Origin: Sorangium aterium
GTDB lineage: Bacteria; Myxococcota_A; Polyangia; Polyangiales; Polyangiaceae
Assembly: GCF_028368935.1 (NCBI RefSeq)
Contig: NZ_JAQNDK010000001.1
Location: 1,550,001 to 1,614,000 of the forward strand
Direction: 5' to 3'
Length of the DNA stretch: 64,000 nt
In this document: in pieces, positions 5,957 through 11,641 of the stretch
How the letters are laid out: every line of letters starts with the position of its first letter
Numbering within the stretch: the first letter of the stretch is position 1
Position numbers and translations under genes: made by a program
The notes under the pieces: model-generated
Told to the model about the DNA's origin: nothing
The model's database searches: none
The model's input: only the letters and a program-made list of their open reading frames with translations

Positions 5957-6106
5957 GGCGCGGCGCCCGCACGCGGTTCGCGAAAGGCCTGGAGGTGGGC
6001 TATGGAGCCCGGGAGCCGGCGCGCGCCCGCGGCGGCAGGCGGCCGGGGCGCGATCGTCGATCACGCGCGCTCCGTCACGCTCCGTGACCCGCGCGGGGGA
6101 GAAGCC

Positions 6107-6520
6107 ATGAAGTCGAAGACCGATTATTTCTACTTCGAGACGAAGGCCAGGCGCGAGCTCATCAACGTCACCGAGCGCGTCGCGGCCGTCGTCGCCGCCA
6201 GCGGCATCCTTGAAGGCATGGTCCTCGTGAGCGCCATGCACATCACCGCCGGCGTGTTCGTGAACGACCACGAGCCAGGCCTCTGGGAGGACATCTGGGC
6301 GTGGCTCCAGCAGCTCGCCCCCGAGGGGCCCGACTACAAGCACCACAGGACCGGCGAGGACAACGGCGACGCCCACCTCAAATCGATCCTCGTGCACCAC
6401 CAGGTGATCGTGCCCATCACCGCGGGGAAGCTCGATCTCGGGCCCTGGCAGCAGATCTTCTACGCGGAGTTCGACGGCGGCCGGCGCAAGCGCGTCGTCG
6501 TGAAGGCGATGGGGGAGTGA
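6107..6520 (+). CDS. yjbQ: YjbQ/UPF0047 family protein
   Basis: 137 residues, the usual length for the family. The conserved pattern is complete: [12 protein letters not shown], then [17 protein letters not shown], then [21 protein letters not shown]. coli YjbQ has weak thiamine-phosphate synthase activity, but the physiological function is not settled. The start ATG at 6107 has GGGGGAGAAGCC directly upstream, which is a convincing ribosome site. It ends 78 bases from the convergent globin gene. Confidence 0.92.
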
Positions 6521-6598
6521 CGCCGCCGGCCGACGCGCGGGCTCCGCGGGCGACAACGTCGAGGGGGCTCGCCTCCCCTGGCCGCCAGCGTGCGCAGC

Positions 6599-7057
6599 CT
6601 AGCCGCCCGCATGCGCGGCGGGCGGCGGCGCGTGGGGCCTCGCGGCGCCGTACTCCCTCGCGCCGCGCTGCATGAGCGAGGCGATCGCGCCGAGCGCGTC
6701 GGTCCAGGCCTTCTGGTGCGCCGGGGACCAGTCCGCGGCCGCGACCTCGGCCATCGCGGAGATCAACGCGTCGGCGACCCAGGGGTACATCGCGTCCGTG
6801 ACGCCGTAGTCGACGTGCTTCGCCCCCATCGCCATGAGCTTCTCCTCGAGCCACGACGCGTCCTCGAGCCGGTCGATGACCGCGGCGAGCGCCTCCGTGA
6901 GCATCTTCTCCTGCTGCTCCTGGCTATTGCGCCCGAAGAGCGGCTTCACCTGCGGATACCGAGAGAACAGGATCCCGTAGAAACGGTGCGTGAGGTTGGG
7001 CTCCCTCTCGATCACGAGCTCGAAGCTCTCCCGCAGCAAGCCAACGTTCAATCCCAT
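6599..7057 (-). CDS. single-domain globin (flavohaemoglobin-type globin without reductase)
   Basis: 152 residues, only the haem domain. It resembles the globin part of Hmp and Vitreoscilla haemoglobin: FYGILFSRYPQVKPLFGR carries the B-helix Tyr and the CD1 Phe, and GAKHVDYGV carries the likely proximal His, followed by YPWVADALISAM. No FAD or NAD domain follows, so nitric-oxide dioxygenation would need a separate reductase. The start at 7057 has GGAGG six bases upstream, an excellent site. It is transcribed divergently from the NorR-type gene, and an exact GG-N10-GC sigma-54 promoter lies about 90 bases upstream of its start. A role in NO detoxification or sensing is strongly suggested by this context. 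Confidence 0.9.
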   Translation of the reverse strand: MGLNVGLLRESFELVIEREPNLTHRFYGILFSRYPQVKPLFGRNSQEQQEKMLTEALAAVIDRLEDASWLEEKLMAMGAKHVDYGVTDAMYPWVADALISAMAEVAAADWSPAHQKAWTDALGAIASLMQRGAREYGAARPHAPPPAAHAGG

Positions 7058-7144
7058 GACAAACCTCCAGGCCGGGCGCTGCGCCCGTGCTAGCCGTCGT
7101 CGCCGGTCGATTCGCCCGTCGGCGCGCGCAGGCGGAATGCGCTC

Positions 7145-7159
7145 GCACGGGCCGTGCCA
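7145..7159 (-). promoter_or_regulatory. sigma-54 promoter for the globin gene
   Basis: Read on the minus strand the sequence is TGGCACGGCCCGTGC. It has the -24 element TGGCACG exactly, then GTGC in place of TTGC, with the invariant GG-N10-GC spacing. Transcription would begin near 7133 and give a leader of about 76 bases to the globin ATG. The divergent gene encodes a sigma-54 activator, which makes the match meaningful. Confidence 0.8.
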
Positions 7160-7209
7160 GGGGCGTTTCTCCGCGGATCGCGTCGATCCTCGCCGGATCG
7201 GCGCGACCT

Positions 7210-7253
7210 CGGCAGACGGCGCGGTTTCCCATGGGAAACCCGGCCGCCTGCCG
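7210..7253. promoter_or_regulatory. palindromic candidate enhancer site 1
   Basis: The centre is a perfect 18-base palindrome, GGTTTCCCATGGGAAACC, at 7223-7240. Outer arms CGGCAGACGG (7210-7219) and CCGCCTGCCG (7244-7253) extend the symmetry with one mismatch in ten. The centre lies about 98 bases upstream of the predicted globin transcription start, a normal distance for an enhancer-binding protein. It shares GTTTCC...GGAAAC with the second palindrome. Confidence 0.75.
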
Positions 7254-7325
7254 AGGGCGGCCGCTCCGGCGGCGCCCACCCGCGCGCCGGCCCGCCGCGC
7301 GCCTTGCTCCGCTGCACCTCACGGT

Positions 7326-7354
7326 GTTTCCTGCCGGAGTCTCCGACAGGAAAC
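7326..7354. promoter_or_regulatory. palindromic candidate enhancer site 2
   Basis: Two 14-base arms, GTTTCCTGCCGGAG and CTCCGACAGGAAAC, flank a single central base with one mismatch. The site lies about 207 bases upstream of the globin start and 33 bases before the GTG of the NorR-type gene, so it could serve both activation of the globin gene and self-control of the regulator. Confidence 0.72.
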
Positions 7355-7386
7355 CTCCGCCGCACCCGTCTCCTCGAGGAACCCGC

Positions 7387-8964
7387 GTGACCCTGCTCGA
7401 CGCCGTGCTCAGCCTGTCGGAAGCGCCCGCCCGCGACGAGGCGCTGCAGCGGATCCTGCGCGCGCTCGCGCGCGTGACGGCGGCGGACGCGCTCTCGGTG
7501 CTCACGGCGGCGGAGGACGGCTCGGTCGGCGTCGCCGCCCAGATCGGGCTGTCGCCGGCCGCCCTGGGGATGAGCTTCCGGCCCGCGGAGCACCCGCGGC
7601 TCCGCAGGGCGACGCAGGCGGCCGGGCCGATCCGGTTCCTCGACCCGAGCGAGCCTGATCCCTACAGCGGCTGGCTGCTCGGCAGTCACGGGGAGATCCA
7701 TCCGATCCACGCCTGCATGGCCGTGCCGCTGCACGTGCAGGGCCGCCTCGCCGGGCTGCTGACGCTGGACGCCTGCGATCCCCACGGCCTCCGCGGCCTG
7801 CACGACGAGGACGCGCGCGTGTTCGCGGGGCTCTGCGCCGGCGCGCTGCGGCTCGACGCCGGCGCCGGGCTGCTCGACGCCCGCCCGGAGGCGCGCCGCG
7901 CGCTCGGCCCGGATTCAAGGGGCCCGGCGCCGGCGAGCCGATCGGCCGGGATGCAGCGGATCGAGCGCGAGATCGCGGTGCTCGCCGCGCTGTCGGTGCC
8001 GGTGCTCGTCACGGGCGAGACGGGCGTGGGGAAGGAGCTCGTCGCCCGCGCGCTGCACGAGCGATCGCCCCGGGCGAGCCGGGCGCTCGTGATCGTCAAC
8101 TGCGCGGCGATCCCCGCGCAGCTGGTCGAATCGGAGCTCTTCGGCCACAGGAGAGGCGCGTTCACCGGCGCCACGGCCGCGCGCGCCGGCAGGTTCGAGG
8201 CGGCGCACGGCGGGACGATCTTCCTCGACGAGATCGGCGAGCTCCCGCTCTCGGCGCAGGCGCAGCTCCTGCGCGCGCTCCAGGAGGGGGAGATCCAGCC
8301 CGTGGGCGAGGACCGGGCGCGCCGCGTCGACGCGCGGGTCGTCGCGGCGACGAACCGCGATCTCCGGCGGGAGGTCGCCGAGGGGCGCTTTCGCGCCGAT
8401 CTGTTCCATCGCCTCTGGGTCTACCCGATCTGCGTGCCGCCCCTGCGCGAGCGGCGCGAGGACATCCCCGCCCTCTGCGAGCGCTTCGCCGCCGAGCTCG
8501 CGGCCGAGCTCGGCGCGGGGCGGGTGGACTTCACCGAGCCGGCGCTGAGCGCGCTCGCGCAGGGAGCGTGGCCGGGCAACGTCCGGGAGCTGAAGAACGC
8601 CGTGGAGCGCGCCGTGCTTCGCCGGACGATCACGGAGGGCAAGAGCGCAGCCGGCAGGGCGATCGTCGTGCGGCGCGAGGATGTCGACGCGATCGATGGC
8701 GACGCGCCGGAGCGCTCGCCCGCCCCGCGGATCGAGCTCCCCGGAGAGCGGCTGCGGCTCACGGACGCGCTACAGGGGCAGCCCGTGGAGCCGCTGGCAG
8801 AGGCGCTCGAGAGGGCCCGCCGCGAGGCGTTCGCCCGAGCGTTCCGGGCAGCAGGCGGCAACGCGGCGACGGCCGGGCGGCTGCTCGGGCTGAGCCGATC
8901 GTTCGCCTACAAGGAGGCGGTGCGCCTCGGGCTCATCCCTCCGGCCGGGCCGCGCAAGCGCTGA
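7387..8964 (+). CDS. norR: NorR/FhpR-type nitric-oxide-responsive sigma-54 activator
   Basis: 525 residues: GAF domain (about 5-165), AAA+ domain (about 190-425) and a C-terminal Fis-type helix-turn-helix (NAATAGRLLGLSRSFAYKEA). Walker A is GETGVGKE, Walker B is IFLDEIGE and the sigma-54 contact loop GAFTGA is intact. The GAF domain has SEPDPY, IHACMAVPL and LLTLDA, which line up with the iron-binding region of E. coli NorR: Asp91, His108, Cys110 and Asp128 match the ligands I recall as Asp99, His111, Cys113 and Asp131. A short insertion separates Asp91 from His108. The GTG start at 7387 has GAGGA upstream. In Pseudomonas a homologue (FhpR) controls flavohaemoglobin, which fits the divergent globin gene here. 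Confidence 0.9.
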   Translation: MTLLDAVLSLSEAPARDEALQRILRALARVTAADALSVLTAAEDGSVGVAAQIGLSPAALGMSFRPAEHPRLRRATQAAGPIRFLDPSEPDPYSGWLLGSHGEIHPIHACMAVPLHVQGRLAGLLTLDACDPHGLRGLHDEDARVFAGLCAGALRLDAGAGLLDARPEARRALGPDSRGPAPASRSAGMQRIEREIAVLAALSVPVLVTGETGVGKELVARALHERSPRASRALVIVNCAAIPAQLVESELFGHRRGAFTGATAARAGRFEAAHGGTIFLDEIGELPLSAQAQLLRALQEGEIQPVGEDRARRVDARVVAATNRDLRREVAEGRFRADLFHRLWVYPICVPPLRERREDIPALCERFAAELAAELGAGRVDFTEPALSALAQGAWPGNVRELKNAVERAVLRRTITEGKSAAGRAIVVRREDVDAIDGDAPERSPAPRIELPGERLRLTDALQGQPVEPLAEALERARREAFARAFRAAGGNAATAGRLLGLSRSFAYKEAVRLGLIPPAGPRKR

Positions 8965-9009
8965 GGAGCCCGAGCGAGACGCCGTCCTCTCGAAGGGCGG
9001 AGCGCAGCA

Positions 9010-9021
9010 CCTCCACGGAGG
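9010..9021. terminator. possible small hairpin between convergent genes
   Basis: CCTCCACGGAGG forms a 5-base stem with a 2-base loop in the 64-base gap between the NorR-type gene and thpR, which converge. Outer CGTCCTC/GAGGACG arms extend it. There is no T-run, so a terminator role is only suggested by position. Confidence 0.3.
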
Positions 9022-9028
9022 ACGACGC

Positions 9029-9616
9029 TCAGCGCGCCGGCTCGGGGGTGCCGATCCCCTCGAGCGGCACGCGCGCGAGCGCGGTGTAGCGCGCCCCCTT
9101 CGGGGTCAGCTCGCTCTGGTAGACGATGATCTCCTCGATCCGCGTCTCGCCGAAGTCGACGCTGCCGACCGCCTGAGCGCAGGCGTCGAGCGCCGGATCG
9201 CCGCGCGGATCGCGCGAGCGGGCGAGGGTGAGGTGCGGCTCGAACGGCCGGTCCTCCGGCACGTAGCCCGTCGACATCGAGAGCGTCTGCTCCAGGTCGC
9301 GGTGGATCGCGGTGAGGGCGCCGACCGCGCCGCCCACGCCGAGCCAAAGCACGCGGGGGCGGCGCCGCGTTCCGAACGCGCCGCCCTTCTCGATGCGCAA
9401 CGTGAGCGGCCTGTGGAATGCGGCGACGCTCCCGGCAGCAGCGATGACGAGCGGCAGGCGCTCCTCTCCGATCTCGCCCATGAAGGCGAGCGTGATATGC
9501 AGCCCAGCAGGCTCCACCCACTTGGCGGACGGAGCCCGTGGCGAGATCTCCCGCAGGAGATCTCCGACCTTGGCGAGGAGCTCGGCTCCCGGATCAACGG
9601 CGACGAAGACGCGCAC
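9029..9616 (-). CDS. thpR: RNA 2',3'-cyclic phosphodiesterase (2'-5' RNA ligase family)
   Basis: 195 residues. The two catalytic HxTx motifs of the 2H phosphoesterase superfamily are present: His40-ITL in PAGLHITLAFMGEIG and His128-LTL in PFEPHLTLAR. Length and the opening RVFVAVD match ThpR/LigT proteins, which open 2',3'-cyclic phosphates on RNA and can reversibly form 2'-5' links. It lies 27 bases downstream of the M2 peptidase gene on the same strand and may be read with it. Confidence 0.93.
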   Translation of the reverse strand: MRVFVAVDPGAELLAKVGDLLREISPRAPSAKWVEPAGLHITLAFMGEIGEERLPLVIAAAGSVAAFHRPLTLRIEKGGAFGTRRRPRVLWLGVGGAVGALTAIHRDLEQTLSMSTGYVPEDRPFEPHLTLARSRDPRGDPALDACAQAVGSVDFGETRIEEIIVYQSELTPKGARYTALARVPLEGIGTPEPAR

Positions 9617-9643: not shown

Positions 9644-11641
9644 TTACCACCCACAGACTTCACCCTTGTTCTGCTCCTTGAGCCACCTCCGGAGGGGCTC
9701 GAAGTACTCCAGCATCGCGCCCGGATCGGCGGCGGTCTCCCCCGTCACCGCCTGCATCGCCTCCTGCCACGGGCGGCTCGCGCCGAGCGAGAGCATGGCG
9801 CGCAGCTTCTCGCCCGCCGCCGCGCTGCCGTAGATCGAGCACGTGTGCAGCGGCCCCGTGTGCCCGGCCGCTTTGCACAGCGCGCGGTGGAACTGGAACT
9901 GGTAGATGTGCGCGAGGAAGTAGCGCATGTACGAGACGCCGGCCGCGACGTGGAACTTCGCCCCCGGGTCGAAATCGGCCTCGCTGCGCTGCACCGGCGG
10001 CGCGACGCCCTGGTACTTCAGCCGCAGCGCCCACCACGCCGCGTTGTAGTCGGCCGGCTTCGTCCTGCCCGAGAAGACATCCCACCGCCACTGGTCGATG
10101 AGCTTGCCGAACGGGAGGAACGCGATCTTGTCGAGCGCCTTCTTGAAGAGGAAGTTGATGATCCCCTTCTCGTCCTGGGACACCCTGTCGAGCAGCCCCA
10201 GCGACCTCAGGTAGCTCGGCGTCACGGAGAGGGCCAGCGTGTCCCCGATCCCCTCGTGGAAGCCTTCGTTGGCGCCCGACTGAAAGAGGATCGGGAGCTT
10301 GTAGTACTGGTGGAAGTAATAGACGTGCCCGAGCTCGTGGTGGATCGTGATGAGATCCTCCTCGCTCGGCTCGATGCACATCTTGAGGCGGAGATCGTCC
10401 CGGTCGCCCACGTCCCAGGCGTTCGCGTGGCAGACGACCTCGCGGTCGGCCGGCTTCCTGAGCAGCGATCGCTCCCAGAAGGTCGCCGGCAGCGGGTCGA
10501 ACCCGAGCGAGGTGAAGAACCGCTCGCCGAGCGAGACCATCTTCTTCTCGTCGAGCTTCTTCGCCTTGATCTTGCGCGTCACGTCGAGCGAGGGCTGGCC
10601 CTTGTACGGCTCCATGAGCGCGTAGACGTTCGACCACTCCTGCGCCCACATGTTGCCGAGGAGGTGGGCCGGGATCGGGGCCTTCTCGCCGATCCTGTCC
10701 TTGCCGTAGATCGCGCGCAGCCTGGCGCGCACGTAGCAGTGCAGCTCGTCGTAGAGCGGCTTCACCTTGCCCCAGAGCCGCTCGGTCTCGGCCTCGAACG
10801 CGTCGGGGGGCATGTCGTAGCCGGCTCGCCAGAGCGCGCCGACGTCCGGGAGGCCGAGCTCCGCGGCCCCCTTGTTGCCGAGGGCGACGTAGCGCTCGAA
10901 CTTCGGCCGGAGCGGCGGGGCGATCGCGTGCCAGCCTGCCCACGCGTCGAGCAGCTCGTCCCAGTCACGGCTGGTCTTCAGGATGCTGGAGAGCTCGTCG
11001 AGCGCGAGGCACTTCGGCTCGGCCCCGGCGCCCGCGGGCGCCGCCCCGCGGGCTGCGGTCGCCGCCCGCCCTGGCCTGGCCTTCGGGCAGTGCTTGCCCT
11101 TGCCGTACAGGCTCGTCATCTCGACCGAGAGCGCGGCGAGCTCGGCGCGCGCCGCCGGATCGCTCGGAGCCGGAAGGGAGGTCGATATCTTGAGGAGCGC
11201 CAGCTGGCGGGAGACATCCGCGGGCAACGCGAGCCCGTCGAAGCGCGCCGCCGCCTTGATCGTGCGGCTCAGGTACTCCATGCTCGCCTCCTCGGCAGAG
11301 GCGGCGAGCGCGTCGGTGTCGTCCGTGAGGTAGGTCTGGTTGACCCAGGACGCGCGCGCGGACTGGATCCGCAGCCTGCGCAGCTCCCGGTCGACGGCGG
11401 CCACGAAGGCCTGCGCCTCGGCCGGGCCGGGCGGCGCCGCCCGCTGGGGGGCGGCCTCCGGCCGGGCCCCCACGGGCGCCGGGGTCGCGGGCGCCTCCTC
11501 ACCTTGGCGCGGCGGCGCTGGCGCCGTCGTCAGCGAAGCGGCGCCGCTGCACGCCGCGCCCAGCCCGAGCGCGACGAGCATCAGCGGACGCGCGATGGCC
11601 GTCCGGGCGAGGGCAAAGCGGACCACGGGCCCTTCATACAC
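9644..11641 (-). CDS. M2 family (angiotensin-converting-enzyme-like) peptidyl-dipeptidase lipoprotein
   Basis: 665 residues. The N-terminus carries a signal with lipobox LGAAC (about residue 31), so the enzyme is probably anchored in the envelope. The gluzincin zinc site is intact: His435-Glu436-x-x-His439 in HHELGHVYYF, followed by NEGFHEGIGD with the third ligand Glu. The length and the downstream sequence match bacterial ACE homologues, which remove C-terminal dipeptides. A Pro/Ala-rich segment follows the lipobox. The gene diverges from the phosphatase gene across 473 bases. The natural substrate is unknown. Confidence 0.92.
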   Translation of the reverse strand: MYEGPVVRFALARTAIARPLMLVALGLGAACSGAASLTTAPAPPRQGEEAPATPAPVGARPEAAPQRAAPPGPAEAQAFVAAVDRELRRLRIQSARASWVNQTYLTDDTDALAASAEEASMEYLSRTIKAAARFDGLALPADVSRQLALLKISTSLPAPSDPAARAELAALSVEMTSLYGKGKHCPKARPGRAATAARGAAPAGAGAEPKCLALDELSSILKTSRDWDELLDAWAGWHAIAPPLRPKFERYVALGNKGAAELGLPDVGALWRAGYDMPPDAFEAETERLWGKVKPLYDELHCYVRARLRAIYGKDRIGEKAPIPAHLLGNMWAQEWSNVYALMEPYKGQPSLDVTRKIKAKKLDEKKMVSLGERFFTSLGFDPLPATFWERSLLRKPADREVVCHANAWDVGDRDDLRLKMCIEPSEEDLITIHHELGHVYYFHQYYKLPILFQSGANEGFHEGIGDTLALSVTPSYLRSLGLLDRVSQDEKGIINFLFKKALDKIAFLPFGKLIDQWRWDVFSGRTKPADYNAAWWALRLKYQGVAPPVQRSEADFDPGAKFHVAAGVSYMRYFLAHIYQFQFHRALCKAAGHTGPLHTCSIYGSAAAGEKLRAMLSLGASRPWQEAMQAVTGETAADPGAMLEYFEPLRRWLKEQNKGEVCGW

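Follow-up and report, generated by a model that had tools for sequence, protein, structure and literature searches.

The 64-kb stretch of Sorangium DNA analysed here (the window; C1:1550001-1614000 of the 13.47-Mb genome G000) probably carries a dedicated two-gene switch, in which a NorR-type regulator acts through sigma-54 on a single-domain globin gene and nitric oxide (NO) is the most likely signal; we put the probability of this reading at about 70%. The evidence from sequence and comparison is the gene pair itself, the promoter and operators between the genes, their conserved spacing, the GAFTGA motif of the regulator and rpoN, and a sigma-54 switch dedicated to the globin is, as a prediction, well supported. 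The sequence-only reading that preceded this analysis had called the locus a nitric-oxide module. Its sigma-54 globin switch has held up, and we keep NO as an inferred signal because the operators and the recognition helix differ from those of canonical NorR, the regulator falls in a sister clade and Asp99 is missing in Sorangium.

The two genes diverge from a gap that runs from the globin start (7057) to the GTG of the regulator (7387) and measures 329 bp (7058-7386). The next gene beyond the globin (UPF0047, 6107-6520) is convergent, and the globin gene is apparently monocistronic. A search of 6000-9500 returned no sigma-70 promoter and no terminator. Farther along, at 9644-11641, the window encodes a full-length M2 peptidase of the angiotensin-converting-enzyme family (E 1.2e-222). 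Genes at the comparison loci described below were called with a crude GC3-based finder.

Table 1. Features of the globin-regulator locus (window positions).
Feature	Position	Strand	Basis
Single-domain globin gene, 152 aa	6599..7057	-	Pfam Globin 3e-13
Predicted -24/-12 sigma-54 promoter TGGCACGGCCCGTGC	7145..7159	-	GG-N10-GC spacing toward globin
O1, putative proximal enhancer GTTTCCCATGGGAAAC, perfect GTTTCC-N4-GGAAAC	7224..7239		motif match
O2a, 2 mismatches, overlaps O2b	7326..7341		motif match
O2b, 1 mismatch	7339..7354		motif match; counterpart, matched by order, in six of six relatives
O3, 2 mismatches, over the regulator's ribosome-binding region	7368..7383		motif match
NorR-type sigma-54 activator gene, 525 aa, GTG start	7387..8964	+	GAF, AAA+, HTH

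Within the gap, TGGCACGGCCCGTGC points toward the globin gene, and because its GC ends at 7145 the globin transcript would by convention start at 7133. When the gap was shuffled 20000 times (mononucleotide shuffles), the exact core TGGCACG-N5-TGC arose in a fraction of 0.0006 and the loose form YGGYAYN7GC in 0.09. The exact core matches the window only at this element, and at up to one mismatch it matches 10 times against 6.95 expected, that is, without enrichment. Since the core is not enriched at this tolerance and the loose form is common, it is conservation and not the single match that carries weight. A -24/-12 element with GG-N10-GC spacing is present in all seven readable gaps of the family described below; it is identical in four (the window, So ce26, So0157-2 and G143) and varies in So ceGT47 (TGGCACAGCTCGTGC), G472 (CGGCACAGCTCGTGC) and G109 (CGGCACGCCTCCTGC). 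In So ce26 another -24/-12 match lies farther out, at 214 bp from the start of the globin gene. The window's genome has one rpoN match, which is above the cut-off.

The palindromes in the gap share a single 16-bp motif, GTTTCC-N4-GGAAAC. O1 is centred 98.5 bp above the expected start and begins 79 bp above the end of the -12 GC. A 29-bp palindrome at 7326-7354, centred 207 bp above 7133, consists of the overlapping copies O2a and O2b, and O1 and O2b start 115 bp apart. These measurements agree with the sequence-only reading, which had described the globin and a NorR-type regulator diverging from 329 bases, a GG-N10-GC element toward the globin with an expected start at 7133, and palindromes about 98 and 207 bases upstream. 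It had missed the fourth copy, O3, a possible autorepression site of the regulator, which lies 29 bp from O2b in all five Sorangium gaps and has no counterpart in the G472 or G109 gaps. At up to two mismatches the window contains four copies of the motif, all in this gap. Shuffles of the window gave 0.76 copies per 64 kb, with 2 of 100 reaching four anywhere; shuffles of the gap alone gave a mean of 0.003 copies, and none of 2000 had three or more.

We propose that dimers of the regulator would occupy the GTTTCC-N4-GGAAAC sites O1-O3 between both genes, with the GAF domain keeping the AAA+ domain inactive until it is released by a signal, most probably NO at a mononuclear iron site. The ring formed on the clustered sites would then, through its GAFTGA loops, open the sigma-54 polymerase waiting at 7145-7159, so that globin is made, and O3 over the regulator start would limit the regulator's own synthesis. 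The globin would convert NO and bound O2 to nitrate and would be re-reduced by a separate reductase.

We searched 108 genomes for this family with a regulator threshold of E <= 1e-95 and 13 candidates scored per genome, and found a regulator match in 22. Eight of the 22 (G000, G482, G483, G484, G485, G143, G472 and G109) have the close form of the regulator, with at least 61% identity; the best matches in the other 14 are 44-49% identical. The G485 contig breaks inside the regulator gene, which leaves seven readable gaps: five from Sorangium, one from a Byssovorax MAG and one from a 16-Mb relative. The same-genus genomes compared include Sorangium cellulosum So ce26, So0157-2 and So ceGT47 (G484). 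All seven gaps have a globin on the other side and hold two to four motif copies at up to two mismatches; gap length ranges from 264 to 330 bp and the distance from promoter to start codon from 57 to 88 bp. Measured from the end of the -12 GC, O1 begins at 79 bp in the window, at 78 bp in So ce26, So0157-2, G472, G143 and G109, and at 90 bp in So ceGT47. The G109 gap has no perfect operator and has a further weaker copy nearer the promoter, starting 5 bp above the -24 element, so that taking its 78-bp copy as O1 was a choice on our part. Of all the evidence, this near-fixed spacing argues most strongly for promoter and operator acting jointly. The pair is also retained in G109 and G472 though the flanking predicted genes differ. 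The claim of a sigma-54 promoter with enhancers therefore stands for a conserved unit in seven of seven gaps, in a genome with one rpoN, and needs amending in one respect: the enhancers are not of the GT-N7-AC type used by NorR and FhpR.

The regulator combines a GAF domain (residues 16-151) with an AAA+ domain (Pfam Sigma54_activat, 185-348) in which GAFTGA is intact. Pfam made no HTH call, and the C-terminal HTH, with the helix SRSFAYKEA, was found by alignment. Against the NCBIfam NorR model NF003451 the regulator scores 486.5 bits over residues 3-516, a narrow 10 bits above the cut-off of 476. It is also the best match (45% identity) to a canonical NorR query in the window's genome. At least 15 sigma-54 activators there match at E <= 1e-70 (150 of 190 first-look candidates scored), and in the other 14 the aligned part of the query starts at residue 103 or beyond.

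The sensor site speaks against NO as the signal at one residue. The canonical iron-centre set is R75 D96 Y98 D99 H111 C113 D131, to which the regulator aligns R71 D91 Y93 S94 H108 C110 D128, with S94 at the position of E. coli D99. Six of the seven residues are thus kept in the Sorangium regulators, and the Asp99 position is Ser in all five that cover it. G472 and G109 retain all seven, and Asp99 is kept in 28 of the 30 NorR-type rows of our first alignment, the exceptions being the window and G143. D99A is among the substitutions listed as disrupting the NorR iron centre in the excerpt of a 2010 paper (PMC2941729). The Ser weakens the case for NO, and the signal may be another gas or the sensor may have been re-tuned. 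One could read the locus as the same sigma-54 switch with a GAF domain that, with Ser for Asp99, answers another cue (oxygen, redox or a small molecule), the globin then serving O2 supply or sensing; VHb-like single-domain globins are discussed also as O2 carriers. We regard this as unlikely, although it has more in its favour than the readings considered below: the other six iron-site residues are all kept, and the regulators of G109 and G472 have Asp99 with the same target and operators. From the latter we conclude that the ancestral input was probably NO. On this comparison NO sensing is likely to be ancestral and is not assured for Sorangium itself, whose regulators have a NorR iron site naturally altered at Asp99.

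The recognition helix sets the clade apart. All eight clade sequences with that part read RSF(A/T)YKE, and the canonical form (R/K/V)(S/G/A)N(L/F)(H/Y/Q/L) is found in 25 of 25 rows reaching the helix. In a 40-row tree, seven clade members lie on one branch (100/100). L064 joins them weakly (81/70), and this group has as its sister the 26 canonical NorRs, E. coli's among them (99/98); six other activators fall outside both (97/98). Midpoint rooting served only to draw the tree, in which three outgroup rows have long branches and four an unusual make-up. L048 and L060 were omitted as incomplete rows, L059 and L065 had no usable frame, and for L005 and L039 other translations of the same loci were used. 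What had been called a NorR-type regulator thus keeps that name by its NorR model score and its GAFTGA, and differs from the canonical type in its helix and its sister position. By these comparisons it probably works like NorR and is best filed as a NorR-type sister lineage and not as canonical, since it lacks the GT-N7-AC operator and, in Sorangium, one iron residue. More tentatively, this may be a NorR sister lineage that has specialised in a single-domain globin, with a new helix and an operator of its own and, in Sorangium, a sensor without Asp99. If so, it could share a cell with canonical NorR-norB and avoid cross-talk, and the Sorangium sensor site would have been rebuilt to read NO differently or to read another gas.

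The best-known relative, E. coli NorR with its target norVW, shares with the locus the GAF-AAA+-HTH architecture, GAFTGA, a divergent target, several palindromic sites and a TGGCAC -24/-12 element. It differs in its operator (GT-N7-AC against GTTTCC-N4-GGAAAC), its recognition helix (DVANLHRLA against SRSFAYKEA), Asp99 (Ser in the Sorangium regulators) and its target, a flavorubredoxin against a globin. The 115-bp step from the start of O1 to that of O2b likewise sets the locus apart from it. PMC1274295 (in excerpt) gives the NorR motif as GT-N7-AC, present as three tandem sites. As a positive control, the same reading of E. coli K-12 norR-norV found GT-N7-AC three times, together with TGGCACGCAATCTGC. 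Upstream of the window's regulator, no GT-N7-AC with flanking symmetry (5 of 7 pairs) occurs within 350 bp. FhpR and NorR systems are similar in that a NorR homologue and sigma-54 drive a globin-type NO dioxygenase (PMC3820574 and PMC1274295, both in excerpt), the flavohaemoglobin genes being P. aeruginosa fhp and V. cholerae hmp (excerpt of PMC3820574). They differ in that their target has a reductase domain, which the window's globin lacks, and in their operators. A single-domain or truncated globin is likewise the target of an NO-linked regulator in Campylobacter jejuni, where Cgb is under NssR (titles cited in PMC3820574), and in Legionella, where glbN is a predicted NsrR target (excerpt of PMC1274295); those regulators are of the CRP/FNR or Rrf2 type, in contrast to the sigma-54 activator here. 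Among the titles listed by searches of the open-licence literature, none dealt with the globin-regulator pair in Sorangium or myxobacteria, which is weak evidence of absence.

So0157-2 and So ceGT47 each encode a second, canonical NorR divergent from a predicted norB. By the filter used, these norR-norB gaps contain one and two GTTGT-N7-ACAAC sites, and neither holds the GTTTCC motif at up to three mismatches, which indicates that two NorR types with two operators coexist. It is very improbable that the locus is simply the canonical NorR/FhpR circuit of E. coli or Pseudomonas, new in its host alone. The passed NorR model, GAFTGA, the several sites and the sigma-54 promoter would fit such a circuit, but the operator is not GT-N7-AC, the helix of all eight clade sequences departs from that of all 25 canonical rows, the clade is sister to the canonical group instead of lying inside it, and the canonical pair is present beside it in these two strains. 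In at least two Sorangium strains, therefore, two NorR-type activators occur naturally together, each with an operator code of its own, which makes DNA specificity and insulation between paralogous sigma-54 activators directly testable. The window's genome has kept a norB homologue (88%; L146, G000:C3:789828-792131 with flanks), with no canonical NorR match in its 1.5-kb flanks; a GG-N10-GC site before this norB was read by eye. A further norB-like stretch (L148-L150, G000:C2:377922-379829) is split over several matches and may be a decayed gene or an assembly error. Elsewhere in the phylum, NorR-type genes adjoin predicted NorB and YtfE/RIC genes, names that come from reading the sequences.

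We then consider the distribution of the operator over whole genomes. At up to one mismatch the motif occurs at five places in the 13.47-Mb genome of the window, namely 7224-7239, 7339-7354 and three elsewhere, against one for a reversed-pattern control; O1 is the sole perfect copy. The three sites outside the gap (L034, L036 and L037) were treated as chance, given this control. The L034 site overlaps a predicted frame, read as the other strand of a kinase gene, that of L036 lies within a glyoxalase-like ORF by our reading of the sequence, and the gene context of L037 was not settled by the crude gene finder. Among six genomes searched, seven of the eight perfect operators lie in the globin-regulator gap and the eighth (G109, L168) lies in a predicted coding frame. 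Total places at up to one mismatch number 5 in G482, 8 in G483, 6 in G484, 20 in G472 and 8 in G109, against 3, 1, 1, 7 and 5 for the respective controls. Each of the six genomes has one-mismatch places outside the gap, so further targets of the regulator are possible in the relatives. Five such sites were inspected there (L168, L177, L180, L181 and L182): those of L180 and L182 lie just inside predicted frames and those of L177 and L181 between predicted genes. The least probable reading, that the regulator controls only itself or distant genes and that the globin promoter belongs to another activator or arose by chance, could draw on these outside places, on the loose -24/-12 form arising in about 9% of shuffled gaps and on the other sigma-54 activators of the genome, but it sits badly with a promoter-to-O1 spacing that is near-fixed in six of seven gaps, with the lack of a second perfect operator in the window's genome and with the co-occurrence of operator, regulator and globin.

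That co-occurrence was followed through globin loci. In a named collection we read the best 21 of 45 globin loci by identity (L101-L121) for operators, which were present at all five globins flanked by the regulator and at none of the 16 without it. The five positive loci are those of G143, G483, G482, G484 and G109, and hence repeat the footprint described above; only the 16 are new. An earlier draw found a globin at E <= 1e-20 in 20 of 144 genomes of the order, with a close regulator within 1.5 kb of it in 3 of the 20. Other Polyangiales globins adjoin or sit near sigma-54-activator-like genes (L072, L075, L076, L078 and L079; in L076 a kinase gene lies between, and the L078 and L079 globins are only 36-38% identical). 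We rejected the extension of sigma-54 control to all related globins, as GAFTGA is replaced in these neighbouring regulators (e.g. ...FGNVRNYPNPGM...), which makes them poor evidence for sigma-54; they probably act without it, judging from their translations and, for four of the five, from Pfam. Their coordinates are L072:6903-8327, L075:3518-4987, L076:2286-3701, L078:2567-4024 and L079:4308-5852. Matches resembling -24/-12 elements were also seen before the L026 globin (29 to 15 bp before its start) and before globins L106 and L109 of one MAG.

The globin itself aligns Y27, Q49, L53, H81 and Y91 with E. coli Hmp Y29, Q53, L57, H85 and Y95, which we take to be Tyr B10, Gln E7, Leu E11, His F8 and Tyr G5. 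The set that presumably marks FHb/VHb-like single-domain globins (Tyr B10, Gln E7, His F8 and Tyr G5) is all present; the Hmp residue that we take to be Glu H23 aligns with Gly and is not kept. Single-domain globins like it include Vitreoscilla haemoglobin (1vhb, 2e-11) and PDB 3s1i (1.9e-12), presumably the Hell's Gate globin, both distant in sequence. Pfam and the alignment to Hmp found no FAD/NAD reductase domain, and the protein scores 66.1 bits against the flavohaemoglobin cut-off of 432, from its globin part alone, which bears out the earlier description of a globin without a reductase. A separate electron donor is plausible because the reductase domain is absent, and since the regulator's main target appears to be a globin free of any reductase, the identity of that donor becomes a question of its own. 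None of the 10 genome matches listed passes the flavohaemoglobin cut-off; reductase-like matches occur elsewhere in the genome, one of them at G000:C1:1637298-1637993. The excerpt of a review (PMC3820574) credits single-domain oxyglobins with apparent NO dioxygenation activity in vitro.

Other globin genes were encountered along the way. A fusion of Ser/Thr protein kinase, globin and alpha/beta-hydrolase, possibly a gas-sensing kinase, is encoded at L082:3071-5623 (G000:C1:3341070-3343622), with further examples at L072:4120-6330, L076:3672-6011 and L073 (by Pfam for L082, L072 and L076, by tblastn alone for L073). At L072, L073 and L076 the kinase-globin fusion gene adjoins a relative of the window's globin. 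At L003/L153 (G000:C2:2156083-2157090) two globin-like matches fall in a single open frame of about 547 aa, with a kinase-like gene close behind, and at L074 (G096:C490) two tandem globin genes are followed by a DUF4388-ParA/MinD-like protein.
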